DNA from: Larkinella humicola
GTDB taxonomy: Bacteria; Bacteroidota; Bacteroidia; Cytophagales; Spirosomataceae
Reading direction: 5' to 3'
Assembly (NCBI RefSeq): GCF_008727875.1
Contig: NZ_VTWS01000002.1
Span: forward strand, 1 to 64,000
DNA: 64,000 bases
The notes below the pieces were generated by a model that saw nothing but the letters and a program-made list of their open reading frames with translations, was not told where the DNA came from and did not search any database. The stretch's first letter is position 1, and every line of letters starts with the position of its first letter. Shown piece by piece: positions 10,564 through 24,465 of this stretch. The translations under genes and the position numbers were made by a program.

Positions 10564-11406
10564 ATGCATCAGCAATACGCACTTCTCTGGCTGAAACGAT
10601 GGGTTGCTTTCTTTCTGGTGCTGAATGCGTTACCCGCTGTCAGTCAGGTAGCTGTAACCAATATCCGCGTCAATGTCATTGAAGAGTCGTCGGTTGAAAT
10701 CCTGTACGACATTACCGGAAACCAACCGGCCGATTCCGTCTATTTCCGCTTACGCAGCCAGATTAACGGCGTCCTGAACCCCGCTCCGCAGTTTATTTCC
10801 GGCGATTGGGGGCAGGATGTTTCGCCGGGCACCAACCGGCGCATCGTCTGGAGAGCCCTGGAAAACGGATTTGAGCTGGATGAAAATATTCGGGTAACTC
10901 TGTTGGTCAAAGTGATTCCGGGTGCCGTGCGAAAACCGGCTGAGTCCGTCACAGAAAGTCCCATCGATCTTCCGAAAAAAAAATACCGGCCTGGCGGCCC
11001 CGAATTTGCCTTGCTGTCGGTGATTGCCCCCGGTGTTGGCAACATTTTTGTCCAGTCGCCCAAACCCGTCATTGGCCACCGGCTGGGCGTGACGGCCACT
11101 TGCTACGGTCTGATGCTCTACGGTTTTATGGAACGCAAAAAATCGCGCGACGACTATTCGCTCTATGAACAGCAACGCAACCGCACAGCCGCACAACCGT
11201 TTTACGACAGTGCTAACGACCACCACCACCGGTATATGATTGCCACCCGCTTGTCGGGAGCCATCTGGATTACGGACATTGTGGCCACATTGATCAAAGG
11301 CGTACGCAACCAGAAGCAGCGCATTAAGACCGTCGAGCCGAAGATCAGCCTGAAACCGGGTTACCAGTCCGGGTATCCGGTTGCGGTGTTCCACTACAAA
11401 TTTTAA
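10564..11406 (+). CDS. Secreted hypothetical protein with beta-sandwich N-terminus
   Basis: Product of 280 aa. An N-terminal hydrophobic stretch ending ALPAVSQ looks like a signal peptide. Residues about 28-120 (VAVTNIRVNVIEESSVEILYDI, FISGDWGQDVSPGTNRRIVWRA) form a fibronectin-like segment often seen in Bacteroidota secreted proteins. The C-terminal half (EFALLSVIAPGVGNIFVQ onward) has Gly-rich hydrophobic segments like DUF5683-type membrane-associated proteins and ends in strands that could anchor it. I do not recognise the exact family. It is the middle gene of the secreted trio. Confidence 0.65.
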   Translation: MHQQYALLWLKRWVAFFLVLNALPAVSQVAVTNIRVNVIEESSVEILYDITGNQPADSVYFRLRSQINGVLNPAPQFISGDWGQDVSPGTNRRIVWRALENGFELDENIRVTLLVKVIPGAVRKPAESVTESPIDLPKKKYRPGGPEFALLSVIAPGVGNIFVQSPKPVIGHRLGVTATCYGLMLYGFMERKKSRDDYSLYEQQRNRTAAQPFYDSANDHHHRYMIATRLSGAIWITDIVATLIKGVRNQKQRIKTVEPKISLKPGYQSGYPVAVFHYKF

Positions 11407-11416
11407 CGACTACAGT

Positions 11417-12127
11417 ATGATGCGTTTCGCACTCATTTTGGGAGTTCTGTTCAGTCTGCTCGGAGAAAGTCAGGCGCAGGTTGGGGTCTATTCGGCGTCC
11501 GGTTCGTGGGTACACGTGAAAATCAAAGCAAAGAATGCGGCATCCGCTTCCAACCGGTTGTTTATGGAAACTTTCACGGATAACCGGAACCGCTGGCTCA
11601 TCGGTCGACGGGGAGCTTACGGGTACGACATGTCCCAGAATGCCTACCACATTTACAAGCAGGCTGATGATTCACCGACTTCGGCCTTTAGTTACGTCTC
11701 CATTCCGACGGCCCTCAATCTGAACAAACTGGACACCTTCATGGTCCAGGTCGATCTGGCTGGCCCCAGCGGCATCATTCCCGACGCAGGCTTGCTGATC
11801 GGGGTCAAAGACTCGTTAAATTATTGCCACTTTCGGATCAACAACAAAAACCAGGTGTCTGTCAAATACGTGATCAACGGATTGAGTTACACCATCTACA
11901 TGCGGGGGGATTATGTACCGGCGGGCATTCCGCTCTCAACGACGAAGAATACGCTGACTGTTCGTAAAAAAGGGGAGCAGATTCATTTTTACCTCAACGG
12001 GCGGGAAATACCGACTAGTCCGTACCAGTTCCGGCAGTACCAGGGCAACGGCATTGGCTTTGTTTCGACGACCGACGGCACGCAGTTTCGGAACCTGACG
12101 GTGAGTGCTGGAGCCGGTCCGCGTTAA
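11417..12127 (+). CDS. Secreted LamG/DUF1080-like protein
   Basis: Product of 236 aa from ATG 11417, chosen because the signal peptide (RFALILGVLFSLLGESQAQ) begins there. The mature domain (LFMETFTDNRNRWLIGRRGAYGYDMSQNAYHI...LTVRKKGEQIHFYLNGREI...GIGFVSTTDGTQFRNLTV) has the concanavalin-type jelly-roll signatures of LamG and 3-keto-disaccharide-hydrolase (DUF1080) domains: a strand with WL and Y, and the ligand-face FYLNG. I see no catalytic residues, so carbohydrate binding is more likely than hydrolysis. It ends convergently with the next gene, the two stop codons sharing TTAA at 12124-12127. Confidence 0.7.
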   Translation: MMRFALILGVLFSLLGESQAQVGVYSASGSWVHVKIKAKNAASASNRLFMETFTDNRNRWLIGRRGAYGYDMSQNAYHIYKQADDSPTSAFSYVSIPTALNLNKLDTFMVQVDLAGPSGIIPDAGLLIGVKDSLNYCHFRINNKNQVSVKYVINGLSYTIYMRGDYVPAGIPLSTTKNTLTVRKKGEQIHFYLNGREIPTSPYQFRQYQGNGIGFVSTTDGTQFRNLTVSAGAGPR

Positions 12128-12987
12128 TTGTCGTCCCGAATGCGTCCCCCGTCCCGGTCAACCACAATTTGCTGACCATCCAGAACAACCGTCGCCTTTC
12201 CGTTCAGGAAAGGGGTCACGTCGTCATACACCGGGTCGATGTGCCACTTATCCTTCTGATCGACATAGCCCCATTTTCCTCCTTTGCGGGCCGCCCGTAG
12301 CCCAAAATCCCCGACCTGGCTATCGACCGAATCATACGGTTTTGTCGGAACCGCCGTTGCCGGTTCGGCAGGTTCCGAAGCTGCAGCAACCGGAACCTGC
12401 GTGGTTTCAGTAGGCGAAAGAAGTGGAGTGCTGTTTTTTGCAACGGACTCGGCGGCTGTCGGCAGCAGCGCGACTTTCTTTGCGGCTTTGCCCACATTCG
12501 GCTGGCGAATGGTCTCTTTAACCTGGACTGCCCCACTGCTCCGGGTTTGTTCCAGTTCAGCTACCTCATCGCGACCAGCTCCGCTGTCGATTTCGGTCAA
12601 TTTTCCTTTCCAAAGCCACAGCAGGATGCTCACAAAAACGATCACCAGCGCAATCAATACTTTATTGGACTGACTGAATGGCGTGGATATGGGGTGAACC
12701 GATACATCGCCGGATAGCGTGGCTACGGGTTGCTGGGGCTCAGCTAACCATATTTTTGCTTCTTTTTGCCGCCAATCGGTCGAAATAAGCTGTTCCCGAA
12801 GGGATTGACCTTTGGGTGTTTCGAGGGCTTCGTAATTATGCTCAAGCAGGTACCCTATGATTTCCTGCGTCAATGTAGTTTCATCGGACGGAATGGCAAC
12901 AAACAGCCGGTTGATCACGTGAGCCGGGACGTGTCGGTCGTAAGGGCCAAAAACCTCTTGTATTTTCTGACGAATGGTATCGATCAT
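12124..12987 (-). CDS. Single-pass membrane protein with WG-type repeat (cytoskeletal cluster gene 8)
   Basis: Product of 287 aa. Residues about 1-75 form a domain (IRQKIQEVFGPYDRHV...LISTDWR) paralogous to one in the neighbouring gene at 13183. A linker, one membrane helix (about 110-130, VLIALVIVFVSILLWLW), a Ser/Thr/Ala/Pro-rich spacer and a C-terminal WG-like repeat (GKWGYVDQKDKWHIDPVYDDVTPF) follow. WG repeats usually mediate protein contacts. It is the last gene of the minus-strand cluster encoding tubulin-like and actin-like NTPases. By position and shared domain it is probably a membrane adaptor for that assembly. Confidence 0.7.
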   Translation of the reverse strand: MIDTIRQKIQEVFGPYDRHVPAHVINRLFVAIPSDETTLTQEIIGYLLEHNYEALETPKGQSLREQLISTDWRQKEAKIWLAEPQQPVATLSGDVSVHPISTPFSQSNKVLIALVIVFVSILLWLWKGKLTEIDSGAGRDEVAELEQTRSSGAVQVKETIRQPNVGKAAKKVALLPTAAESVAKNSTPLLSPTETTQVPVAAASEPAEPATAVPTKPYDSVDSQVGDFGLRAARKGGKWGYVDQKDKWHIDPVYDDVTPFLNGKATVVLDGQQIVVDRDGGRIRDDN

Positions 12988-13182
12988 TTCATGCTTCAGT
13001 TAGTAAACGAAGAAACCCATTCATTTAAGACTCTCAAAAGTTACGAAAAGTCATATAATCTTCATAATTTTTTACGCGATCGGCTTCAACGTTCTTTCGG
13101 ATAACCGTCTGACACCGTGTCTGTTTATTTTTCTGATCATTCGGTATCTACTTCCAGTGAAGTCATCTGGAGTCAGCGGTCT

Positions 13183-14235
13183 TTAAGACGTTAGGAATGC
13201 TTTTGGGTAGGGGTAGGCATCCAGCCGGTGGCTCGTCTGTTTCTTGGAGCTTTTCCGAGTCGGTTCCGGCTCCGGTTCTTCGCCCCTCGTCATCCGTAAC
13301 ACGACCCAGATCAGCACCAGAGCCGATAAAATGGCCAGGCCAATCAGAGCGGCATCCGAAAAGCTGCTTTTTTTAGGCGGTTCCGGCGGCACGACCGGAG
13401 GTGGCAGAATCGCCTGCGGGTTTCCGGGTAATGGCCCGCCACCCGCTGGAAACCGGTTTGCCGGATTCACCCCCGCCGGAGCAGGCGTTGTGGTATACCC
13501 GGTCTGGGTTTTTACATAGTCCGTCGGTTGCGGTTTGGATTGCTCCTTCTCCCACCAGCTCAGGTGCCGCCAGTCGGTCGAAATCAGTTTTTCCTTCAGC
13601 GTATTGCCTCGGGGCGGGTTTACCGATGCGTAATAATGTTCCGACAGATACAAGCGGATTTCTTCGGCCAGTGCCGCTTCATCGTAATCAACGGCTTTGA
13701 ACAGAAATTTCAGACTTTGCGCCTGAATATGCTTGTCGTAATCGTCCAGAATACTCTTGATTTTTCGCCGGACCGACTCCACTTTTTCAACAACCGGTGC
13801 CGGGATAGGCGGACTTTGCGGGTTTGCCTGCGAAACAACCGGACCCGATCCGTGGCTGGCCGGCGAAACGGGTTCCTCGCTTGCGGACGAAGCCGGAAGG
13901 GCTTCCAGAATAGCCGGAATCCACTGTTCGGTTACAAAAGCCCGCGACAACTGAACCCGTTCGGCTTCGGCGACAAACTGGTTAATGTCCGTTTCCGACA
14001 ACTGGTTGTGGCGTTGCAGGGCCACCGTGACCATCTTCTTTTTCAGATCCAGAATCTTCCCGAAATCACGGTTTACCTGACGGCTGATGTCATTGACCAG
14101 GCGGGTAAAATCCGTAATTCCCAGTTCATTGGCCTCCGCCACAAGCCCCTTTTGTCGCCACTGCCAGTCAGCCAGTTCGCCCTCATACAGAACGACTTCA
14201 TTTTTAATTCGATCCCGTAATTCTTCGAGTGTCAT
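13183..14235 (-). CDS. Coiled-coil single-pass membrane protein (cytoskeletal cluster gene 7)
   Basis: Product of 350 aa with no signal peptide. Residues about 1-115 are helical and charged (EELRDRIKNEVVLYEGELADWQWRQ...VNRDFGKILDLKKKM), likely a coiled coil. A Pro/Ser linker leads to the domain shared with gene 8 (about 150-225, VRRKIKSILDDYDKHI...LKEKLISTDWR). A Pro/Gly-rich stretch, one membrane helix (AALIGLAILSALVLIWVVL) and a short basic tail follow. It should tether cytoplasmic partners to the inner membrane. The 195-base gap to gene 8 and 117-base gap to gene 6 hold no other gene. Confidence 0.7.
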   Translation of the reverse strand: MTLEELRDRIKNEVVLYEGELADWQWRQKGLVAEANELGITDFTRLVNDISRQVNRDFGKILDLKKKMVTVALQRHNQLSETDINQFVAEAERVQLSRAFVTEQWIPAILEALPASSASEEPVSPASHGSGPVVSQANPQSPPIPAPVVEKVESVRRKIKSILDDYDKHIQAQSLKFLFKAVDYDEAALAEEIRLYLSEHYYASVNPPRGNTLKEKLISTDWRHLSWWEKEQSKPQPTDYVKTQTGYTTTPAPAGVNPANRFPAGGGPLPGNPQAILPPPVVPPEPPKKSSFSDAALIGLAILSALVLIWVVLRMTRGEEPEPEPTRKSSKKQTSHRLDAYPYPKAFLTS

Positions 14236-14352
14236 GATCTCCGTAAATCCCTGTTCATTGTAGCGAAGACCGGTTACAAGGCAAGCAGCTATCAGAATAG
14301 TGAAAGTAAATACTATCTTGTTACCAAATAATCCGGGCTGGGTATTAAATTA

Positions 14353-15624
14353 CTAAATAAATCTAATTTTTGCTTTTTCTGTAATCTTCCATTTGTCGCC
14401 CTGAAGTGTTAATCGCCCTACTTGCTCCGTCCGGATCCGGCTGTTCGGATTGGGTTGCGTCAGGTACTCACAGGCATCGTTGAGGTACGAATACGGATCG
14501 CTCAGTGCCAGCCGTTGGGCATCCGCATTTTCCGAAACCTGGTAAGTAGCCTGCGTATCACCTTGCAGGCTGATGTCAAAAACCGTATCGCGTTCAGCAG
14601 TAGCCAACAAGCCTCCGGCGCTAAACCCGTCACCCAAATCCGCCGTTCGGGCGTAGAGAGCCGTGGGTTTTGAGGGCAAGGTCGGGGTGCGAAAACGATT
14701 GGACGGACGCGCTGTTTCCGGCTCAACTGGCGCTTCCTGAACCGGTGCTACCACTTCAAGCGGCACTTTAACCGCCGGAGCAGCCGGTTTTTCAGCCCGG
14801 TTTTGTTCCAGTAACCGGACGGCTCTTTCAAGGGCTTCCAATTGTGCATTCAACTGAAAATTTTCATTTGTCTGGTTTTTGCGTACTTCAAGTTTACTGA
14901 TGCGGTCAGACAGTTTCGCTAATTGAGAGTCAAACTGCACATCACGAGCCGATTGCTGCGGCTTCTGGTTCTTTAAGACGAGATACGCCAGAAAAGCGAC
15001 GGCAACGAGACTCAGTATTGATAAAATAAGCGCAAAACTATCCATAGCATTCCAGTTTGATTGAGTGGGTGATGGGGTGGTTACCGGTGTTTTTTCAGCA
15101 CTTTCCGCCGGATTGACGGGCGCATTTTCTTCCGTAGCAGCAACTTGCTGCGGGGGAGCTACAACGGCAGGCCCCGCGCCTAAAGCGCTGGTAATGATGC
15201 CGTCCAGGGTGGTTTGAAAAGCCGGATAACCCGGTAGCGTCTGCCGGGTTATCCGGTCTCCGGTGGCTACTTTCTGAACCAGAAAATCTTTGACGCCTTC
15301 CAGAGCTGTGCGGGGCTGGTTGATCTGCGCGATGTTCTGAGCCGCTCTTTTTTTGGCGTCATCGGTCAGTTTATCCGCCCCGACGAGGTCGTTTTGGGCA
15401 ATGAATTCCTTTAACCCCTCATAGGAGTCACAGGCACATTGTTTCGACTTGACGTTCGGAAAGGTCTGGGCATCCGTCGCCAGAAACTCCACCGTCGCTT
15501 TGGTCATTAGAAAAGCCGCCTGATCGAGTTTCCGCCGGTATTCCGCATCCGTTTGGGCAAAAGCCGGTCTGTTTAGAAGCAACACGCCAAGCAACAAAAT
15601 CCAGCGGGTAGTTTGACAGATCAT
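14353..15624 (-). CDS. Signal-anchored trans-envelope coiled-coil protein (cytoskeletal cluster gene 6)
   Basis: Product of 423 aa. A cleavable signal peptide (ILLLGVLLLNRPAFAQ) puts residues about 24-185 in the periplasm. One membrane helix (about 192-215, FALILSILSLVAVAFLAYLVL) then leads to a cytoplasmic coiled coil (LAKLSDRISKLEVRK, LEALERAVRLLEQ) and a Pro-rich linker. The C-terminal domain (about 330-423) ends VGRLTLQGDKWKITEKAKIRF, a form I associate with Bacteroidota proteins of unknown role. This topology would connect the periplasm to the cytoplasmic NTPases. The gene starts 27 bases after the actin-like gene ends, so the two are surely cotranscribed. Confidence 0.7.
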   Translation of the reverse strand: MICQTTRWILLLGVLLLNRPAFAQTDAEYRRKLDQAAFLMTKATVEFLATDAQTFPNVKSKQCACDSYEGLKEFIAQNDLVGADKLTDDAKKRAAQNIAQINQPRTALEGVKDFLVQKVATGDRITRQTLPGYPAFQTTLDGIITSALGAGPAVVAPPQQVAATEENAPVNPAESAEKTPVTTPSPTQSNWNAMDSFALILSILSLVAVAFLAYLVLKNQKPQQSARDVQFDSQLAKLSDRISKLEVRKNQTNENFQLNAQLEALERAVRLLEQNRAEKPAAPAVKVPLEVVAPVQEAPVEPETARPSNRFRTPTLPSKPTALYARTADLGDGFSAGGLLATAERDTVFDISLQGDTQATYQVSENADAQRLALSDPYSYLNDACEYLTQPNPNSRIRTEQVGRLTLQGDKWKITEKAKIRFI

Positions 15625-15651
15625 CCTTTGAAAAGAAAGTTTAGTTGAGTA

Positions 15652-18600
15652 TTACGATTCGGCAATGTACTTCGACAGCTCATACAACGCGTGTTTGAGC
15701 GGCAGAAAAAAGTAGGTTTCGCCCAGGGCATCATTCGGCCGTTGTTCAAAACCCATCCGCGCCAGCATGTAGCTGTCGTAGAGCCGTCCCCCGCGCGTAA
15801 TGTCCGCGCCGACGAGGTAATCGACATACCGTTCGGGCGTCTGGATGTTGTATTCGCTCAGGAAATAGGCGATGTCGCGGTCGTGCAACGTCAGTTCCAG
15901 AAACCGCTTCATGTTGTGTAAAACCGAGTGGTGAAACGCCTGCTGCGGGCTGACTTCCCCAATTTTCGTCCGGCGGTATTCAAAGGCAAAGGGGTTTGCC
16001 CGCTCCTGCCCTTCTTCGGCGGCCGTTGCGGGTTCGTTGCCCCAGTAACAGGTCGTTTCCCGGTTTTCATACTGTGCTTTTTCGCCACCGGCGTTTTCGT
16101 ACAAAACCGCTCCGTTGGCCGTCGTTTCCTTCGGATTGTCGGACAGAATCACCTCAAAATCCGGCGGCACCGACTGTTTGGAATACGCCTTGAACAGCAT
16201 TTTGGTAAACTGAATCAGGCGCGACCGCGACCCGAGCATTGCCAGATACTGACTACCCCGGCCCGTAAACGTCAGGTAGCGCGGCAACGCCAGGTTGTGC
16301 GACTCCAGCAACTGAACCAGGTGATAAACAATCGAGCTGTAGTGCAGGTAGAGTACGATCCGCAGGGCCGGTTTTCCGTCCTGAATCGACTGCGTAAACT
16401 TGAAGTGACTGTCGTACTTGAACAGCAAACTAACAATATCCTCAGCGGTCAGCTCCGGTTTGTTCAGGAAGGTGTCGAGAATCGAATCTTCCCGGGCGGG
16501 GGTTTGATTCAGTGTTCGGCGGTAGGCCAGGTAATTTTTGACAAAACCGCTGTCTTTCCGGTGCGATGGATGGCCCTGTTCGTCCAAACCGCCCCCCCAG
16601 ATGTCGTAACCGGCAAACCGGAACGACGTATTCAGATACCGGCCCTGCTGTTTCATGAACAGCATGATGTCGGCGGTTCCGCCACCGATGTCCACATTGA
16701 CGGTATCAGCAAAGGATTTGACGCCGTTTTTGACGAGGTAGAAGTATGGAGCCAGCGACTCCGGTACCGGTTTGACCCGGAAGTTACTCGTGGTGCCAAA
16801 AACATTTCGGGCGGCCTGTTCCCACTCATGCACCAGATTGTCTTCCGTGACGGCCCGCATGCTCGAAGGCGCCAGCCAAACAATGCTCGTCTGCTGCACA
16901 TTACCCTGATTCAGAATCACTTTATTCCGAATCAACAGCAACAACGTTTCGAAAAAGGCCCGAACCCGGGGGCGGTTTAAGGTGTCGCCCGGCTGGTTTT
17001 CAAACAGCCATTTCAGGTTCGTTACGTAGTGATTGACGCCCGTGCTGCCTTCCTCCAGATCGATGTTAAAGCCCAGATTAACTTTGGAAAACAAATTGTT
17101 ACCGCTGTCGGTAAAACCGCTTTTCTCGTACACCGTGGTCCGAAGCGGGAATGCGAACGGCGAGCCAAATTCCTTGCCGATGATGGCCGGAATAAACTCC
17201 CGCCGAACCAGTTGATCGAGCTGCACCAGACCGCCAAAGCTGACCCGTTTTTCGTATTTGTCGTACACCGTCTGCGCTTCGTAGCCTTCATACGGTTTGT
17301 TGAACAGCACCATTTGTAGCTCGTCTTTGTCGAGCGACGTGTTCTGGTCGCTCACCGTCAGGGCTTTCGGCTCCACATCGCCCATCGCGGCATCAGTGTA
17401 GGCGATGTGCGTATTGGACGTTCCGAAGTCGATGGCAAACGTAAAGTTCTTGTAGCCTTTTTCCGAGATGGTCGTAAACTGCGGCAACACCAGGCCCCGG
17501 TACGGAATACCGCTCCGCTCCAGCCGGATTTCCATGACGTCGAATGCCTGTGGAACTTTGTAATAATACGAGGCTGGCAAGGGATCGACTTTCGGTGAAC
17601 GGGCTTCAGGAGCCGGAACGTTGAGCGGTTTTCCCGCAATAATATTCGGTAACTCGTAGAAATGCACCGAGTTGTGCGCCCGAAAACCAATGTTAGGATC
17701 GCTCACATCGGCCAGCATCACATAATACTGGTTCATGGACTGCAAATCGGGAACCGTAACGCGGTAGAATGGGAAAAACGCCAGACCAGCCCGGAAGTCG
17801 ATCACGGTTTCCGGTCGGGCCAAATTGTATTCTTTCCGGAATTCAATCGTCCGGTTGTTCCGAATCGGAATGCGAAGGATGGCGGTTATGATTTTATCAG
17901 TTCCCCGGTGTTCCACCGAAAAGGCGAACTGCTTTTGCAGATCGTCGATTCGGAAGAAGTTAAAATACTCTTTCCGAACCGGCAGCAAAAACTCACATTC
18001 GCCGATGGTTCCGGTAAAAAACCGCTTATTGTTGATTTTAAACGGTACCTGAATCAGAAAATCTTCCAAAAAATCGTCGGTTGTCAGGAACGGATACCGT
18101 ACGTTGTCGACGCCCGGCAAATACCGTTCAGCCAGCAAACCGCCTTCGCTGAGGTTGTTCAGCAGCGAGCGCATGATGACCGTCTGCGGGTTCCAGTTGG
18201 TATTTTTCACATACCGCCCGGCCACATCCATCCGCGACGCCAGTGCCAGCGGTTTCCGAACGTTGGTCGGTGCGCCGTTGCGGCTTTCCTGCTGGTAATA
18301 CGAAACCGTGGGCTGCATGACGAAGTCGCTGTTTTCTTCAATATCATCCAGCACGTCGTTTTCGCGTACCTTATACAGCGCCAGTCCCGGAAGTACCTGC
18401 AAGGTCGAGTTGCCCTCGCCACCAATCTGAATCGGCTCGAAGTTTGCCAGCGTCGTGTTCGCTTCGACCGGAAGTTGGGTGGTATTGTCAAAAAACGCTT
18501 TGTAGAGGAATTCGGAAAAACCGCCTTTCGATGGCAGCAGATCTTTATACTGATCATAAAGCCGTCGCAGGTAAGTCACAAAAGCCGTGTCCCGATCCTG

Positions 18601-19236
18601 CAAAGGCACATATTCATTCTGAAACAGCATCCGGCCCGTCGTGCTTTTCGGCGGATCGATGAACTTGTTCTGGCGTTCCTGCTCCCAGTTGGGCGACGTG
18701 AACACCAGCGACAAGGGCGACGTTCCACCCAGCAGCGCACCTTTGTAATAGATCAGCGTAAACTGTTGCAGGGTCCCCAGTTCGTTGCGAAAATCCAGTT
18801 CCAGGGCTTTGGCCAGAATCTGGTGCGCGTGTCGAACGGTGGTCGAGGGGTTGGCTTTTTTCCGCAGGGCATCCAGCCGCTCGGCGCGGTTCCAGACCCG
18901 GTACGTCAGATCGGCACTGTTCCCGGCCTGAAACAACAGTTCAAGCATGTCGAGGGCGTGCGAAACCAGCACGTGATACAGCGACAGTTCGCGTGGAAGC
19001 TGGTTGTTTTTAATCATCCGAAACGCCGTATCGAACAGATACAGCCGCGCGAAGGGCGACGGAATCGATGTACCGGCTTTGGCAGCGGCCCCGGCCGCAC
19101 CCCCAGCGGCCCCGGAGAGCGTGTCGGGAATGTGTTCAATGCGGTTGCCCGTCAAGCCCGTTTGCGAACCCGTCCAATCCTGGTGGTTCTGCTGGCTGAC
19201 GTTGGGGTCATTATCAATTCTGAGAATATGTGGCAT
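15652..19236 (-). CDS. Large protein with actin/Hsp70-type ATPase core (cytoskeletal cluster gene 5)
   Basis: Product of 1194 aa. From about residue 598 it carries actin-superfamily ATPase motifs in order: phosphate 1 DFGTSNTHIAY (Asp603), phosphate 2 VDIGGGTADIMLF (Asp849), and an adenosine-like LTFTGRGSQYLAML near 990. A C-terminal tail of about 100 residues follows. The first 590 residues match nothing I know: an Ala/Gly linker, then mixed helix and strand with FFNFFRIDDLQKQF and FPFYRVTVPDLQSMNQYYVMLADVSDPNIGF. SrfB-type virulence-associated actin-like proteins are the nearest build to compare; orthology is not claimed. No membrane segment is seen, so it is probably cytoplasmic. It lies directly upstream of gene 6 and downstream of the tubulin-like gene. 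Confidence 0.8.
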   Translation of the reverse strand: MPHILRIDNDPNVSQQNHQDWTGSQTGLTGNRIEHIPDTLSGAAGGAAGAAAKAGTSIPSPFARLYLFDTAFRMIKNNQLPRELSLYHVLVSHALDMLELLFQAGNSADLTYRVWNRAERLDALRKKANPSTTVRHAHQILAKALELDFRNELGTLQQFTLIYYKGALLGGTSPLSLVFTSPNWEQERQNKFIDPPKSTTGRMLFQNEYVPLQDRDTAFVTYLRRLYDQYKDLLPSKGGFSEFLYKAFFDNTTQLPVEANTTLANFEPIQIGGEGNSTLQVLPGLALYKVRENDVLDDIEENSDFVMQPTVSYYQQESRNGAPTNVRKPLALASRMDVAGRYVKNTNWNPQTVIMRSLLNNLSEGGLLAERYLPGVDNVRYPFLTTDDFLEDFLIQVPFKINNKRFFTGTIGECEFLLPVRKEYFNFFRIDDLQKQFAFSVEHRGTDKIITAILRIPIRNNRTIEFRKEYNLARPETVIDFRAGLAFFPFYRVTVPDLQSMNQYYVMLADVSDPNIGFRAHNSVHFYELPNIIAGKPLNVPAPEARSPKVDPLPASYYYKVPQAFDVMEIRLERSGIPYRGLVLPQFTTISEKGYKNFTFAIDFGTSNTHIAYTDAAMGDVEPKALTVSDQNTSLDKDELQMVLFNKPYEGYEAQTVYDKYEKRVSFGGLVQLDQLVRREFIPAIIGKEFGSPFAFPLRTTVYEKSGFTDSGNNLFSKVNLGFNIDLEEGSTGVNHYVTNLKWLFENQPGDTLNRPRVRAFFETLLLLIRNKVILNQGNVQQTSIVWLAPSSMRAVTEDNLVHEWEQAARNVFGTTSNFRVKPVPESLAPYFYLVKNGVKSFADTVNVDIGGGTADIMLFMKQQGRYLNTSFRFAGYDIWGGGLDEQGHPSHRKDSGFVKNYLAYRRTLNQTPAREDSILDTFLNKPELTAEDIVSLLFKYDSHFKFTQSIQDGKPALRIVLYLHYSSIVYHLVQLLESHNLALPRYLTFTGRGSQYLAMLGSRSRLIQFTKMLFKAYSKQSVPPDFEVILSDNPKETTANGAVLYENAGGEKAQYENRETTCYWGNEPATAAEEGQERANPFAFEYRRTKIGEVSPQQAFHHSVLHNMKRFLELTLHDRDIAYFLSEYNIQTPERYVDYLVGADITRGGRLYDSYMLARMGFEQRPNDALGETYFFLPLKHALYELSKYIAES

Positions 19237-19263
19237 GAGGTTCGAGAGATCAAAGAGGGGTTA

Positions 19264-19363
19264 TTTCGCAGAGTTAAGCGGAGGAAATCAGAGTTTATCA
19301 GAGAAAAAGTTTTTCAAGAAATACTCTGATAAACTCTGATTTCCTCCGCTCAACTCTGCGAAA
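19264..19363. repeat. Intergenic palindrome, family A copy 1
   Basis: Forty-base arms (19264-19303 and 19324-19363) pair with one mismatch around a 20-base loop. It lies between the tubulin-like and actin-like genes, both on the minus strand. Copy 2 is at 32330-32427 with nearly the same arms (TTTCGCAGAG, AATCAGAGTTTATC). Confidence 0.9.
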
Positions 19364-19372
19364 CAACTTTTT

Positions 19373-20869
19373 TTAAACAGCAGCGTCCGACAGTTGCCGG
19401 TTGAGCGGGCCGAGTTTTTCGCGGGCTTTCTCCGCAATTTCAATCAGCAATTGCATAAACCGTTTTTCCGGTTCTGGGAAAGGCGTTTGAAACGTATTTT
19501 CGATCTTTCCGGCCTGGTCGCGCAGGAATTTTTCACTGAGACCTTTGTCGAAGAAACCGGTTTCGATCCGCTTCGAGCGTACCATGGCATTGAAATCATT
19601 CAGCATGTCGAACGGATAAAACGCCCGGTCGTTCTGTGCCATTTCGTTCAGCCAGTTTTTGAAATGGTGCGTCATGAAATTCTCCAGCGATGTATAAAAC
19701 GTGTTGGTGCGCAGGTTCTGGGAAAGGGCCAGGTTTTTGGCAAACGCTTCGCCCAGGTTGGTCGGCACAAAGTCGGTGAAGAACTTCGTCGCGTAGGCAA
19801 ACCGGATAAGGGGTTCGAGGATGCCGTTGTAGGTCTGGTCGTGAAAATGGGGCAGATCGAGCGTCCGGTCGTTGCGTTTCAGGCCGTATTCAAAATACCG
19901 CTTGGCGTCGCTGAACTCGGCTTCGGGTTTATTGGCAAAATCCAGAATGGCCGCAGCCGCCAGCATCTCCACGACGTGGGCGTTGTTGGTCTGCTTCGAA
20001 CCGCCTTCCACGTTGGGGTAGAGCTTGCTGCCGGGCCGGTCGCCGATGTAATACAACGCATCCAGGTTCACCTGCGTCTGGTAATACGAAAGCGCAGCCT
20101 TGGTTTTGGACAAAAACCGGTTCTGGTCGATGGCACTCTGGCTGTTTTCTTCCAGCGCAAAATACGGCATCACCGTCACCGCGCCTTTTTTGGCATTGCG
20201 GATCTGGATTTTCTGACTCGGATGTTGCAGCAACTTGACCAGTTGCGGAAAACCGGCCGAACCCGTACCCCCAAAAATGGAGCTGATGACGAAAATCCGG
20301 TCGGTCTGGTCGTTGAAGGCACCGGTGAAATATTTATACACCGCCGAGTCTTCCAGCGCGTTGAACACCACACTGCCGATGTTCGGATTTCCTTTGAAAC
20401 CCACCGACAGATTCAGTTTCAACTCCGCACTCGTGGGCCGGGCCGAGTTGTCATAGAGCAGTTTGAGCAGTTCGCGGTCGATGTCGTCCATGCTGCTGAC
20501 ACTCAAAAACTCTTCAAAAGTCCCCTCGTGATCGGTCAGTTTGGGCAACACCGAATCGCCGATTTTCTCCTGCGCATTTTCGGCCTGAAGCGTCCCGAGC
20601 GGTTGCAAAGGCGTGGCAAAAAACGTCCGCCGTTCGGTCTGGCTGCCCTGACTGGCTGCGGTGTCTTTATACGCCGTCCGGCGGATGGCGCGGTAGAGTT
20701 CAACCTCCCGCAACGCCCGTTCGGTGTCTCCGTTCTGCATGTCCATGTCGAGCAGAATCGGGATAATGGTCAGGTCGGCGGGGGTTTTAGATCCGGCGGC
20801 CAGTAACATGGTCAGCGAGCGAAGGACGCGGGCGCCCGTACCACCAATACCAAAAAGAAATAGTTTCAT
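19373..20869 (-). CDS. Tubulin/FtsZ-superfamily GTPase (cytoskeletal cluster gene 4)
   Basis: Product of 498 aa. It starts directly with the T1 loop (FGIGGTGARVL, residues 6-16). The tubulin signature is around residue 200 (FVISSIFGGTGSAGFPQLVKLL), and a helix equivalent to H7 (TNNAHVVEMLAAAAILDF) follows. The C-terminal half is mostly helical. It is not FtsZ: it is longer and lacks the FtsZ core spacing and C-terminal tail. It fits the Tubulin_2-like families whose gene neighbours are VWA proteins and membrane proteins. Expected role: a nucleotide-driven polymer or switch in the cytoplasm, working with the actin-like protein next door. Confidence 0.82.
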   Translation of the reverse strand: MKLFLFGIGGTGARVLRSLTMLLAAGSKTPADLTIIPILLDMDMQNGDTERALREVELYRAIRRTAYKDTAASQGSQTERRTFFATPLQPLGTLQAENAQEKIGDSVLPKLTDHEGTFEEFLSVSSMDDIDRELLKLLYDNSARPTSAELKLNLSVGFKGNPNIGSVVFNALEDSAVYKYFTGAFNDQTDRIFVISSIFGGTGSAGFPQLVKLLQHPSQKIQIRNAKKGAVTVMPYFALEENSQSAIDQNRFLSKTKAALSYYQTQVNLDALYYIGDRPGSKLYPNVEGGSKQTNNAHVVEMLAAAAILDFANKPEAEFSDAKRYFEYGLKRNDRTLDLPHFHDQTYNGILEPLIRFAYATKFFTDFVPTNLGEAFAKNLALSQNLRTNTFYTSLENFMTHHFKNWLNEMAQNDRAFYPFDMLNDFNAMVRSKRIETGFFDKGLSEKFLRDQAGKIENTFQTPFPEPEKRFMQLLIEIAEKAREKLGPLNRQLSDAAV

Positions 20870-20893
20870 AGAAAAAAGGTCTGAACCCGGATT

Positions 20894-20973
20894 GAGCTGA
20901 TTTTTGTGATTGAACTGATTTTAATGGAAGTACAATTCCTGACTTGTATCCGTTGAATCAGAAAAATCAACTC
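20894..20973. repeat. Imperfect intergenic inverted repeat
   Basis: Arms 20894-20919 and 20948-20973 (26 bases) pair with four mismatches. The element fills the gap between the small membrane protein gene and the tubulin-like gene on the same strand. Confidence 0.65.
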
Positions 20974-20981
20974 ACTCCCGG

Positions 20982-21356
20982 TCAAAAGGGGGTTCTCTTC
21001 GCAAAAATGGAGAACCGTTTCAGGAGTAACGAAAAAACGAAAAAGTAAATTAGCGCGTACAATAAGTTTACGCCACCAAATCCCTGCATGTAACTGTCGG
21101 TATCCTCGGCACCGGTGGCGTCGAGGGCGAACCAGACTGCATACCCAAATCCGAAAATACCGGCGATCACCAGCATGATGACCCAATGGGAGGTCCGGTA
21201 AAAAATGGACTTCCAGCGTCCCAGAATCAGGTAAAACAAGGCCGCCAGGCCCAGCGAGAACAAGAGAGTAAGAAGACCAACGGGCGTAAAAATTTCGTCG
21301 GCGTAAATAGGGTCATTGTTCTGGCCCAGCCAGAGTTCATACAGGGTTACAAACAT
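20982..21356 (-). CDS. Three-helix membrane protein (cytoskeletal cluster gene 3)
   Basis: Product of 124 aa with three strong membrane helices (VGLLTLLFSLGLAALFYLIL, WVIMLVIAGIFGFGYAVWF, LLYALIYFFVFSLLLKRF) and short charged loops, including an acidic loop ATGAEDTDS. No family is recognised. It sits between the VWA-like lipoprotein gene and the tubulin-like gene on the same strand, and palindromes occupy both flanking gaps. It may be an inner-membrane anchor of the same assembly. Confidence 0.75.
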   Translation of the reverse strand: MFVTLYELWLGQNNDPIYADEIFTPVGLLTLLFSLGLAALFYLILGRWKSIFYRTSHWVIMLVIAGIFGFGYAVWFALDATGAEDTDSYMQGFGGVNLLYALIYFFVFSLLLKRFSIFAKRTPF

Positions 21357-21385
21357 GGGGATGAAAGTTAGTATTTGTGTTTTAT

Positions 21386-21452
21386 TGCCCCCACCCCCCT
21401 CAAGGGGACTTCTAACCCGGAGGTTTTAGCCCCCTTCAGGGGGGTGGGGGCA
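21386..21452. repeat. Intergenic palindrome, family C-like
   Basis: Arms 21386-21407 and 21431-21452 (22 bases, one mismatch) rich in G and C. It separates cluster genes 2 and 3. It shares the layout (CCCC...AAGGGGACTT, then the reverse) of the elements at 52652 and 56712. Confidence 0.85.
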
Positions 21453-21456
21453 GAAT

Positions 21457-22728
21457 TTACTTCTCTAATTTTAAATTCAGCACCAGAAAATCGTTGTTCG
21501 ACGATTGGTACGCTTCCTTGACGCCGTTCATCAGGTGAACCAGCGCAAAGGTTTTGTTAAACCGGCTGCTGGGCGTTCGGTCGTCCAGGGTCGACCAGCC
21601 AGCGGCATACCAGTCATCAAACCGCACCGGCAATTTAAGGATAACATCGGCCTTTTCGTCATACAGATTTTCTACCCGGAACGTTAGCACGTGGGAGTTC
21701 TGGTTGAGTAGTTTCAGCTCCCGTTCTTTCAGTCGATTGGTAGCAACTTTTTCTTTTTTCTGAACGTTGATCAGCTTGACCGTGGCATTGGGGGCCGTTA
21801 CGACCAGGTTTTTCCGGATGAAATCTTCCGCCTGCGCGTAACTCGGTAATCCGTTCAGGTTGACGCCCACCGCAAATTCAGCCGGAGCCGCCGGTTTGAC
21901 CGTCAATTCGGCCAGGCCCGCTTTTTCGGCGCGCCACTCGCCTTTTTTGTTCAGCGAAAAGAACAGATCGAACTGTTTTAGCGCCCCACTGGCTCCAAAA
22001 TCCAGTTGCTTGGCGGGTTTAGTAATCATCAGTTCGTTCAGCTTCCGATTCAGATCGCCGACTAGTTCCTGTTTGCCAATGATCCAGATGTAAAACGGCC
22101 GGGATTCGCCCGTCAGCTTGTGTTTGTTATTCTGATAGTCGTAATAGGTGCCGTTGAAACCGGAGCTGTAGGCCAAAACCGTGGCACTGATGCCCTGCTT
22201 TTTCAGGCTGGCAAACTGGTCGTTGATCTGGCTTTTGAGAACGCTCTCGGCATTTTGCCGGTTGATTTCCGGGTTTTTCCGGATTTCCGCATCCGGAAAC
22301 GACAGAATGCAATCCGACACCAGCAGAGCGACGGTGTTTCCTTTCGCCTTCTCTCCTACCTCTTTGAAAATTTTGTGCAATTCCGAACTCCGCTCGGTGG
22401 CCAAAGGCGTTGTCGCCAGATTGACCACAAACTGATTATAGCCTTCTACAAACGGTTTGGGTTTTCCGGCAATGGTCCAGACTTCCACCGGCGCAATCTG
22501 GTTCAGTTTCGTCACGACTTCGGAAACCGCGACCTTGAAATTCGTTTCTCCTTTCAGATACCCGCCCATACTGGCCGAGGTTTCCATAAAAAACAGGATG
22601 TTGCTGATACCGGCGGGTTTGGCTTCGGGCGGTTTTTCGGTCTTTTTTTCTTTCCGGCCGCAGCTTTGGAAAAACAGGAGGAGTACCAGAAAAAACAGGC
22701 TGGTGGCCCGAAGGGGTGATTGATTCAT
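21457..22728 (-). CDS. VWA-like lipoprotein with altered MIDAS (cytoskeletal cluster gene 2)
   Basis: Product of 423 aa. The ATG at 22728 is chosen because the lipoprotein signal begins there (LFFLVLLLFFQSC, Cys23). Residues about 43-245 have a von Willebrand A pattern: ISNILFFMETSASMGGY at strand 1, GNTVALLVSDCILSF in the middle, then SATVLAYSSGF. The metal-site motif is ExSxS (Glu49, Ser51, Ser53) rather than DxSxS. The C-terminal half is beta-rich and unassigned. It should be tethered to the inner or outer membrane facing the periplasm or surface, and may be the envelope partner of the cluster's NTPases, as in other tubulin-like/VWA neighbourhoods. Confidence 0.75.
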   Translation of the reverse strand: MNQSPLRATSLFFLVLLLFFQSCGRKEKKTEKPPEAKPAGISNILFFMETSASMGGYLKGETNFKVAVSEVVTKLNQIAPVEVWTIAGKPKPFVEGYNQFVVNLATTPLATERSSELHKIFKEVGEKAKGNTVALLVSDCILSFPDAEIRKNPEINRQNAESVLKSQINDQFASLKKQGISATVLAYSSGFNGTYYDYQNNKHKLTGESRPFYIWIIGKQELVGDLNRKLNELMITKPAKQLDFGASGALKQFDLFFSLNKKGEWRAEKAGLAELTVKPAAPAEFAVGVNLNGLPSYAQAEDFIRKNLVVTAPNATVKLINVQKKEKVATNRLKERELKLLNQNSHVLTFRVENLYDEKADVILKLPVRFDDWYAAGWSTLDDRTPSSRFNKTFALVHLMNGVKEAYQSSNNDFLVLNLKLEK

Positions 22729-22796
22729 TCGTTTGTGCACGTCGTATGGTATCTGGTTTGAAACCGGTTCCCGGCCGGCCATGTCCTCAATCTGGA

Positions 22797-22869
22797 TTTT
22801 GCCCTCAAACCCCTGAAGAGGCTAAAAAACTTCGGGAGAAAAGCTCCCCTTCAGGGGCTGGGGGCAAAA
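22797..22869. repeat. Intergenic palindrome, family C-like
   Basis: Imperfect arms 22797-22818 and 22849-22869 (TTTTGCCC...CCCCTGAAG and the reverse) between cluster genes 1 and 2. Confidence 0.7.
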
Positions 22870-22874
22870 TACCT

Positions 22875-23495
22875 TTAACCGTTTTTTTGTTTAGGCAGTA
22901 AATAAACAATCAGTAACAAAATCGCCAACACAATGGTATAAACGTCAGCGAGTTTGTCGGCTTCGTAGTGATCGCACCCCCTCATTAACAGGCTGGCAAA
23001 TACTGTACAAACGACGATACCCCAGTAATTCGTACGTATGCGCCAGCGAGCCGCGCCCACACTGAAATAAATAAGCTCAATTAGCAACAGCACCCCCGCC
23101 ATAACGGCCCACATAGAGTCGATCAGTTTCGGATTGCTGCCCACGCCGTCTTTGCGCGGCTCTCCCCCGATGTTGATCAACAACAGCAAGGCCAGTCCGG
23201 ACAACGCCATCCCGATCCAGTTGAGCAAACCCACCCGGGCGGACGGCAACCCCGCCGAACTCACCCGGGGCAAGGCATCCAGCGATTTTTCGACCGGCAG
23301 CGGTGGCCCCAATGGCCGGCGATCAGGCTGAAGAATGGGTATTGCGGCTCCAACCGGCTGTTTTTCGGCGATTTCATACGTCCAGACATGCCGGTAAACC
23401 GGATCGTCCTTGCGAAAAATATGAATCTGACCACTTGCATCCTTGAACAGCCCACATTCCGTCAACTCATCGTAATGAATAACACCTCTGTGCAT
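22875..23495 (-). CDS. Four-helix membrane protein (cytoskeletal cluster gene 1)
   Basis: Product of 206 aa from ATG 23495; an upstream in-frame start adds 14 residues of no clear character. The N-terminal cytoplasmic segment of about 90 residues (HYDELTECGLFKDASGQIHIF, DPVYRHVWTYEI) is followed by four helices (about residues 95-115, 125-150, 160-178, 185-203). The family is not recognised. It is the first gene of the minus-strand cluster and is divergent from ksgA, so its promoter region would precede the whole set. Confidence 0.7.
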   Translation of the reverse strand: MHRGVIHYDELTECGLFKDASGQIHIFRKDDPVYRHVWTYEIAEKQPVGAAIPILQPDRRPLGPPLPVEKSLDALPRVSSAGLPSARVGLLNWIGMALSGLALLLLINIGGEPRKDGVGSNPKLIDSMWAVMAGVLLLIELIYFSVGAARWRIRTNYWGIVVCTVFASLLMRGCDHYEADKLADVYTIVLAILLLIVYLLPKQKNG

Positions 23496-23587
23496 GAATA
23501 AATGACGTATTACTCCGAAAGCGGTAAAATTAACCAATTCCCTCAGGAAATGCCACGAATTTTATACGGTTCCATCAACGGTCGGTG

Positions 23588-23616: not shown

Positions 23617-24465
23617 ATGCCTGTGCGATCTTACGGAAAACCTTCAAAGCGAACCACGTCAGACCGGGAACAGTCCTTCCGGGGTGATGCCGTTCGTGCT
23701 AAAAAACACCTGGGGCAACATTTTCTGAAAGACCTCAGCATTGCCGAACGCATCGCAGGGCTGCTTTCCGGCCACAATGGCTACAAAAGCGTGCTGGAAA
23801 TCGGCCCCGGCATGGGCGTGCTGACGCAATATCTGCTCGGCCCCGACCTGCCGTTCACAACGCACGTCATTGAGATCGACAACGAATCCATCGCCTACCT
23901 TACCGCCCATTTTCCCATGTTGCGTGGCCGGATTCTGGACGGTGATTTTCTCAAAAAAGATTTATCCGTTCTGTTTCAGGAGCCCGTTGCCATCATCGGG
24001 AACTTCCCGTATAACATTTCGTCGCAGATTTTATTCAAGGTTCTAGACCATCGCCAGCAGGTACAGGAAGTGGTGTGTATGCTGCAACAGGAAGTGGCTC
24101 AACGCATTGCTTCCCCGCCGGGCAACAAGGATTACGGGATTCTGAGCGTTTTGTTACAGGCTTACTACGACATCCGGTATGAATTTACGGTGGATGCCAG
24201 TGTGTTTTCGCCCCCGCCGAAAGTGCAGTCGGGGGTCATTAGTCTTCGGCGCAACACCGTTGTCGCCTTGCCCTGTGACGAGAAAAAATTTGTTCAGGTG
24301 GTTAAACAAGGCTTCAACAACCGCCGGAAAACACTGCGAAATGCCCTGAAACCGTTAAACCCTCCGGAGTCCATGTTGTCTCATCCTTTACTGGATAAAC
24401 GCGCCGAGCAACTGGGCGTGCCGGAGTTTGTTCAACTTACCTTGCTAATGATGAATGATGAATGA
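23617..24465 (+). CDS. ksgA: 16S rRNA (adenine1518-N6/adenine1519-N6)-dimethyltransferase
   Basis: Product of 282 aa. It dimethylates two adjacent adenines in the 3' hairpin of 16S rRNA during small-subunit maturation, using S-adenosylmethionine. Motifs: KKHLGQHFLKD at the start of the domain, the SAM-binding LEIGPGMGVLTQYLL, the acidic VIEID, and NFPYNIS, the catalytic N-F/L-P-Y motif. A C-terminal helical domain follows (KKFVQVVKQGFNNRRKTLRNAL). The length is usual for the family. The last codons (MMNDE and the stop) are written by the left arm of an intergenic palindrome, so the native C-terminus may have been altered by insertion. Confidence 0.95.
   Translation: MPVRSYGKPSKRTTSDREQSFRGDAVRAKKHLGQHFLKDLSIAERIAGLLSGHNGYKSVLEIGPGMGVLTQYLLGPDLPFTTHVIEIDNESIAYLTAHFPMLRGRILDGDFLKKDLSVLFQEPVAIIGNFPYNISSQILFKVLDHRQQVQEVVCMLQQEVAQRIASPPGNKDYGILSVLLQAYYDIRYEFTVDASVFSPPPKVQSGVISLRRNTVVALPCDEKKFVQVVKQGFNNRRKTLRNALKPLNPPESMLSHPLLDKRAEQLGVPEFVQLTLLMMNDE

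Follow-up and report, generated by a model that had tools for sequence, protein, structure and literature searches.

A conserved gene cluster of Larkinella humicola suggests a machine joining tubulin-type and actin-type cytoskeletal proteins

Background

Among the described systems, the FtsZl1-VWA operons come closest to the locus treated here. According to the text of Makarova and Koonin 2010 (PMC2875224), these operons are predicted to act in membrane remodelling and combine the tubulin-like protein with VWA, GTPase, kinase and OmpA neighbours. In the majority of FtsZl1 proteins there is an extended coiled coil, together with a C-terminal domain made of helices (one example has 1051 amino acids); many, though not all, have a P-loop GTPase or a kinase as neighbour. 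An actin or Hsp70 neighbour is not mentioned in the text of that paper that was consulted. One of its referees objected that it was not clear how a cytoplasmic FtsZ-like protein works with periplasmic partners. A second system of interest is Zorya with its ZorA/ZorB motors (PMC11890865).

The locus described here was found in a window of 64,000 nucleotides from Larkinella humicola (Bacteroidota; contig NZ_VTWS01000002.1, positions 1 to 64,000). It comprises eight genes, named g1 to g8 in the order of transcription (Table 1), in which a gene for a tubulin-like protein (g4) is followed by one for a large actin/Hsp70-like protein (g5). The pair is kept across phyla and is fused in two cases; we take this as a hint of a so far undescribed machine in which tubulin-type and actin-type cytoskeletal proteins come together. 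An earlier sequence-only reading of the window, made without database searches, had proposed a trans-envelope assembly driven by two nucleoside triphosphatases (NTPases) and had pointed to the 2010 paper, whose content agrees with what was ascribed to it.

Pairing and fusion of the two NTPase genes

The occurrence of the pair was surveyed in 59 genomes searched with g4 and in 392 genomes of the phylum searched with tubulin, actin and MotB profiles. Homologues of g4 were found in 24 of the 59 genomes including its own, among them all nine genomes of the genus (identity 91-100%). The actin gene is next to the tubulin gene in 19 of these 24 (the window and 18 loci), the pair is split in one genome (G040) and one has no actin match (G037), while for the remaining three (G002, G003, G008) the view was limited to 4.5 kb. 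A tubulin match is present in 52 of the loci fetched wide, the window excluded. In 47 of them a separate actin gene is the next family gene on the same strand, and in all but two of these the gap between the genes is -20 to 260 bp. The other five loci comprise two fusions (L061, L100), the split arrangement of G040 (L033) and two loci without actin (L043 of G037 and L099 of G362). L034 and L059 share one contig, and L106 is a near copy of L107, so 45 of the 47 are distinct. Fourteen of the 47 (L047-L060) were retrieved with the actin profile, so that the finding there is the presence of a tubulin gene beside it (14 of 14). The genes are not scattered among relatives; such scattering would have refuted the sequence-only reading.

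In the 392 genomes, the tubulin profile matched 13, and actin matches of at least 35 bits occurred in 11, all of them inside the 13 and adjacent to tubulin. The two other tubulin genomes hold a fusion (G271) and tubulin pieces with no actin (G362). With kinship not corrected, the co-occurrence gives a Fisher p of 1e-19 when genomes are counted and of 1e-13 when genera are. The cut of 35 bits was chosen after seeing a gap between 35.4 and 26.7 bits; it excluded 289 of 300 matched genomes before the count, whose matches (at most 27 bits, mostly around model positions 826-868) were read as generic phosphate-2 matches. Path lengths in tubulin and actin trees agree with a rho of 0.92 over 43 loci, the trees being quick ones with long branches.

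The pair is present in Bacteroidota, in Bacillota and on cyanobacterial plasmids. Carriers include Hymenobacter, Solirubrum, Pedobacter psychrotolerans, Bacteroides luti, Prevotella, Christiangramia and Rudanella; the plasmids belong to Synechococcus NIES-970, Gloeothece PCC 7822 and Picosynechococcus PCC 7003. The operon was also seen on three contigs of a viral collection (L105, L106, L107; viral status presumed from the collection), with the motor gene pair described below in two of them.

Five genes form the widely conserved core, in the order VWA-like lipoprotein, protein with three transmembrane segments, tubulin, actin and single-pass linker. Even in the 9 Mb genome G040 they are all found, at unlinked places: the genes for the VWA-like, three-segment and tubulin proteins at one (L033), actin, g6 and MotA at a second and MotB at a third (L101, L102). 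The remaining genes g1, g7 and g8 are exchangeable lineage modules, so the eight-gene unit of the sequence-only reading holds for the core but not for these three.

In two genomes the pair is encoded as one polypeptide. A metagenome-assembled genome of Syntrophomonadaceae (Bacillota; G446, locus L061) carries tubulin and actin in a single stop-free frame of 1660 codons, with tubulin at residues 1-413 (198.6 bits), SIPSP, an N-terminal motif of the actin family, at 569 and actin at 887-1627 (116.8 bits). Among 299 genomes of its phylum, the fused protein matched two, G446 included. The second fusion (G271, locus L100) belongs to the phylum of the window and is one frame of 1615 codons, with GGTG at 10 and 190 in the tubulin part (36.5 bits) and DFGTS at 1041 and LGGGT at 1277 in the actin part. 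Its neighbours are a lipoprotein-like gene that weakly matches the VWA-like profile (11.5 bits), a gene resembling MotA (17.7 bits; ZorA1 at 3.9e-7 in the tail) and a gene with an 'ADLMT' transmembrane motif. The latter is read as MotB-like by this motif alone, with no match to the MotB profile at E 0.5 or to PADLOC models. Profile matches of loci and fusions were obtained in small search sets (one of four proteins), so bit scores are safer than E-values here. A third candidate, G694, whose frame was first given as 1622 amino acids, was discarded: a TAA separates the two genes.

Near-constant pairing, fusion and co-inheritance argue for the two NTPases acting as a single unit, and their conserved partnership is probably physical.

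Predicted folds

Structures were predicted with AlphaFold2 from the window protein together with homologous proteins from related loci. In g4, the tubulin motifs seen by the sequence-only reading are located at residue 7 (GIGGTG) and residue 200 (GGTG) of 498. The protein matches Pfam Tubulin_2 with 29.2 bits (cut-off 27) and, in whole-genome searches, with 22.2 bits, below the cut-off. The g4 model has a predicted local distance difference test (pLDDT) of 80.3 and a predicted template modelling score (pTM) of 0.88. In a Foldseek comparison with PDB, its top 50 matches are nearly all tubulin, CetZ and gamma-tubulin complexes with probabilities of 0.94-1.00; one clear outsider is an enoyl reductase (probability 0.82). 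The nearly invariant D310-F311, a tentative candidate for the T7 catalytic loop that completes the GTPase site between subunits, falls close to where a predicted helix (299-313) ends. The sequence profile has its best PDB match in the archaeal tubulin/FtsZ entry 3zid (0.014). We read g4 as a tubulin-type GTPase domain, as modelled, with a divergent remainder.

The model of g5 (pLDDT 78.5, pTM 0.69) combines a predicted actin/Hsp70 fold with phosphate-1, phosphate-2 and adenosine motifs (DFGTS at 603, IGGGT at 850, TGRGS at 991 of 1194 residues), the two phosphate motifs being those named by the sequence-only reading. Foldseek matches in PDB are MreB (6.2e-8), DnaK (3.3e-7) and ParM (2.5e-6), and the sequence profile reaches MreB at 0.0055. 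Because both sequence profiles reach solved structures weakly, g4 and g5 are both far from solved families. A g5 homologue in L108 matches Pfam FtsA (1.5e-4) and MreB_Mbl (5.9e-4), both under the cut-offs. For residues ~1-600, ahead of the actin domain, no relative was recognised by Pfam or the PDB profile search. Invariant positions are found in this region, e.g. in the IPSPFA stretch. SrfB, a family that the sequence-only reading had put forward for comparison, was dropped as an identity of g5, as no SrfB model in Pfam or NCBIfam matched. An actin-type fold and, with weak scores, a tubulin-type fold were thus both recovered where they had been anticipated.

A rival reading that we consider doubtful is a non-polymerising signalling or chaperone-like complex in which an Hsp70-type nucleotide switch and a tubulin-like GTP switch would gate a membrane output. 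Foldseek places DnaK/BiP nearly as high as MreB, g5 has its long extra N-terminal region, g4 lacks clear C-terminal similarity to tubulin, and downstream modules look sensor-like (a WG repeat; zinc-ribbon and SH3-like parts, by reading). Against such a switch, the best structural matches of g5 are to MreB, a filament former, and neither a J-domain nor an Hsp70 substrate-binding domain was recognised by Pfam.

Upstream of tubulin, a g2-type gene is found in most fetched loci; in Gloeothece it is located on the strand opposite to the pair. In a 15-sequence alignment of the g2 family, the lipobox-like Cys41 is invariant and a MIDAS-like (metal ion-dependent adhesion site) motif, [DE]xSxSM, is frequent. 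The small membrane-protein gene before tubulin was assigned from position and hydropathy only in cyanobacteria and Bacillota.

The content of this operon raises the question of a Bacteroidota version of the FtsZl1-VWA system, new only in sequence divergence. A Tubulin_2 match, a VWA-like neighbour and, in relatives, an OmpA-type neighbour fit the description in the text of PMC2875224. Tubulin_2 matches of the g4 family are partial, however, with 16.6-29.2 bits in the seven members scanned and none listed for L100, and the proteins have ~500 amino acids. A Tubulin_2 search of 198 genomes of the phylum returned two proteins over the cut-off, in frames of 1138 and 1215 amino acids, scoring 232.3 bits (model 1-355) and 176.5 bits (model 1-350). 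Within 20 kb around each of their genes there was no actin, VWA-like, MotA or MotB profile match. These genes are located at 6881-10279 in L121, with a SHOCT match under the cut-off at the end, and at 7032-10658 in L122, where the protein ends in GYF_2. The long coiled coil and C-terminal helical domain typical of FtsZl1 were not seen in g4, whose longest modelled helix has 28 residues (no coiled-coil program applied), and none of the eight window proteins has a P-loop GTPase or kinase match in Pfam. On model coverage, length and neighbourhood, g4 was rejected as an FtsZl1 protein. Given these outcomes and the lack of an actin profile match near the two full-scoring Tubulin_2 genes, we judge the locus to be more than an FtsZl1 variant, a reading that we regard as quite improbable; a view based on composition only may differ.

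Downstream motor or adaptor genes

Downstream of g6, many relatives encode what appears to be a motor. The first gene product (437-606 amino acids) has an N-terminal transmembrane segment, two paired transmembrane segments marked by GLxGT and SxxGL motifs, and a long tail that looks like a coiled coil. The second (200-270 amino acids) has a transmembrane segment with the consensus 'SYADLMT' and an OmpA-type domain. These MotB-like proteins match Pfam OmpA at 2.2e-5 and 1.4e-4 (under the cut-off), the ZorB models of PADLOC at 2.4e-13, 9.9e-14 and 1.9e-27 in the best cases, and the PDB entries 8vvn (1.4e-10) and 8qyd (1.8e-7, annotated 'membrane protein'), the latter of which we take to be ZorB. 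The strongest ZorB match, to ZorB3, belongs to the protein of L098, which was yet missed by the MotB profile. For the first protein, ZorA models match the transmembrane region at 1e-4 to 6e-5 in two cases and the tail at 1e-8 in L098, and the family profile finds weak coiled-coil matches only in PDB. Its putative label, MotA/ZorA-like, derives from transmembrane topology, motifs, weak hits to ZorA models and the MotB neighbour.

Strong MotA and MotB matches occur in the same eight of the 59 genomes, all eight tubulin-positive, and MotB matches of at least 100 bits in five of the 392, again all tubulin-positive; the rule holds even where the genes are unlinked (G040). MotB matches of at most 31 bits were dropped (5 genomes of the 59, 29 of the 392). 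On the tubulin tree, 20 of the 43 loci have MotA and/or MotB (G040 counted via its unlinked copies). The clade of the window (10 loci) has no motor. The window's genus carries WG-repeat/adaptor membrane proteins in its place, and the MotA and MotB profiles matched none of the nine genus genomes, the window's included. Proteins of the g7/g8 type were found in 10 loci, eight of them in or beside the lineage of the window's genus and two outside (L040, L041). Three Prevotella loci and Sodaliphilus instead encode at this place a membrane protein that begins with what reads like a zinc ribbon.

The ZorB matches, the long tails of the MotA-like proteins and some ZorA matches also suit a Zorya-style sensor of phage attack or envelope injury, in which motor or adaptors would sense a disturbance of membrane or wall and the tubulin-actin core would be the cytoplasmic responder. 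So do the patchy distribution (24 of 59 and 13 of 392 genomes), the cyanobacterial plasmids, the motor genes that come and go on the tubulin tree (at least six changes, five of them forced by starred branches) and the two separate tubulin lineages within one bacterial family. Such a defence role is unlikely in our view. Neither the eight window proteins nor the L040 actin matched a PADLOC model (the neighbours of other relatives were scanned in part), and on the result for the eight a known defence system was rejected for the window locus. Pfam showed no nuclease or helicase domain in these eight. The system is present in all nine genus genomes at high identity, and three genes upstream, read from their translations as rsmA, mgtE and dtd, recur in all five genus loci fetched wide, unlike in a defence island.

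Gene order and neighbourhood

The eight consecutive minus-strand genes of the sequence-only reading are confirmed by the open reading frame (ORF) calls, which give an uninterrupted series spanning 12124-23537 with intergenic gaps of 27-195 bp. It is flanked by convergent plus-strand ORFs ending at 12127 and a divergent ORF starting at 23617. The gene starts of the sequence-only reading, 22728 and 23495, are both in-frame ATGs; the former is more probable as the start of the lipoprotein than 22782, and the latter lies inside an ORF that extends to 23537. Hydropathy agrees with two multi-pass and three single-pass membrane proteins (three transmembrane segments each in g1 and g3, one each in g6, g7 and g8); coiled coils and Pro-rich linkers in the window proteins were judged by eye. 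Pfam matches over the cut-off in the eight proteins are limited to Tubulin_2 (g4) and WG_beta_rep (g8, E 2.4e-8), and no NCBIfam model matched them at its cut-off.

Table 1 Genes of the locus and its convergent neighbours in the window
Gene	Position	Strand	Features	Class
g1	22875..23495 (ORF to 23537)	-	soluble N-terminal part and three transmembrane segments (hydropathy)	lineage accessory
g2	21457..22728 (ORF to 22782)	-	VWA-like lipoprotein	core
g3	20982..21356	-	small protein with three transmembrane segments (hydropathy)	core
g4	19373..20869	-	tubulin-superfamily GTPase-like, 498 amino acids	core
g5	15652..19236	-	large actin/Hsp70-superfamily ATPase-like, 1194 amino acids	core
g6	14353..15624	-	trans-membrane linker: signal-peptide-like start (by eye), transmembrane segment 199-217, conserved C-terminal part	core
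g7	13183..14235	-	adaptor-like helical repeats, linker rich in Pro (both by eye), transmembrane segment near the C-terminus	window-type accessory
g8	12124..12987	-	adaptor domain common with g7, one transmembrane segment, WG beta repeat	window-type accessory
	11381..12127	+	putative exported protein, 248 amino acids; convergent	neighbour conserved in window-type loci (cluster cl8)
	10564..11406	+	putative exported protein, 280 amino acids; convergent	neighbour conserved in window-type loci (cluster cl6)

The g1 profile matches 10 fetched loci (L026-L031, L040, L044, L045, L060), where the gene immediately precedes that of the lipoprotein, and g7 and g8 fall into one similarity cluster. The two convergent exported-protein genes (clusters cl6 and cl8) are present in the same nine of the 10 loci that bear g7/g8-type genes; in the tenth, L040, the fetched sequence stops short of them. 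Their recurrence indicates that the accessory neighbourhood is wider than the interval originally delimited.

Discussion

The reading that we favour, an envelope-spanning mechanochemical machine with two NTPases, has in our estimate a slightly better than even chance of being correct. It is based on the predicted folds, the pairing, the fusions, the gene order and the motor genes of relatives; direct binding, filaments, force and a topology beyond hydropathy are what we infer from them. Folds obtained by structure prediction in genes that stay together across phyla amount to more than chance, and the combination of a lipoprotein, a single-pass linker and motor or adaptor modules points to coupling across the inner membrane.

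In such a machine, the tubulin-superfamily and actin/Hsp70-superfamily proteins would form one physical unit in the cytoplasm, either a mixed complex or a co-polymer, docked at the inner membrane via g3 and the linker g6. The N-terminal part of g6 would extend into the periplasm towards the VWA-like lipoprotein, to which GTP- and ATP-driven assembly or conformational change could be coupled across the membrane. In many relatives the core would be plugged into a MotA/MotB-type motor, by analogy powered by the proton motive force, that has a long tail in the cytoplasm and a domain for wall binding in the periplasm; in the window's genus the single-pass adaptors g7 and g8 would fill the motor slot. 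The machine would serve envelope remodelling or transport, and not cell division. A more specific version, in which tubulin and actin form an obligate heteromer (a mixed polymer or stoichiometric complex, sometimes one polypeptide) coupled through the inner membrane with either a rotary motor of the MotA/MotB type or adaptors, is a tentative proposal that we hold possible at less than even chance.

Several observations weigh against the machine. Foldseek scores g4 weakly: its best E-value is 3.0e-3, not one of 1003 matches reaches 0.001, and TM-scores are 0.21-0.38. Neither the C-terminal half nor the T7 loop of g4 was placed on the tubulin fold. The VWA label that the sequence-only reading gave to g2 is favoured by the lipobox-like Cys and the MIDAS-like motif of relatives but finds no match among Pfam VWA models in g2 or the relatives scanned. 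Both fusions are on draft contigs, and the actin part of L100 is weak (23.1 bits with a profile built without L100). In L029 and L051 the gap between tubulin and actin is 733-734 bp and holds one short unassigned ORF. No actin was found by profile within 20 kb of the distant tubulin homologue of G037, and the locus of G362 (L099, G362:C38, 5925-11067) has genes for the VWA-like and three-segment proteins, tubulin in pieces and motor genes, with no actin; this is possibly decay or an assembly fault, G362 having 13% contamination. Binding between g4 and g5, polymerisation and hydrolysis are predictions, and co-inheritance could be explained by co-regulation without binding. From the sequence-only reading, the conserved and probably physical partnership of the two NTPases is supported, while their acting as a cytomotive drive stays conjectural. 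The defence and switch readings overlap with the machine.

Tubulin-type and actin-type proteins are treated as separate cytoskeletal worlds; a unit that almost always encodes both, sometimes fused, would if true be a natural direct coupling of the two. The objection raised by the referee of the 2010 paper finds a possible answer in the single-pass linkers and the MotA/MotB-type motor at hand here. As cultured bacteria and cyanobacterial plasmids carry the system, it is testable. Among the matches listed in the open-access literature (titles and abstract starts; preprints outside), no tubulin-actin operon or fusion is described.

Compared with known systems, the locus resembles the FtsZl1-VWA operons in uniting a tubulin-superfamily protein, a VWA-like protein and membrane proteins, sometimes with an OmpA-domain protein, in one operon and in a predicted membrane-remodelling role. 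It differs from them in a tubulin of ~500 amino acids, the lack of a P-loop GTPase or kinase neighbour in the window and an actin-superfamily partner. With Zorya, its relatives share a MotA-like subunit with a long cytoplasmic tail and a MotB-like subunit with an OmpA-type domain. In contrast to Zorya, no motor was found in the window's genome or genus and no effector was recognised, and tubulin and actin stand in their place. The C-terminal half of g5 is like MreB, ParM and DnaK in its three nucleotide-binding motifs and predicted fold, whereas the ~600 extra N-terminal residues, the length of 1194 amino acids and the tubulin partner set it apart. Similarly, g4 is like FtsZ, CetZ and tubulin in the predicted fold of the GTPase domain and the T1/T4 motifs, and unlike them in low TM-scores, an unmatched remainder and its actin partner.

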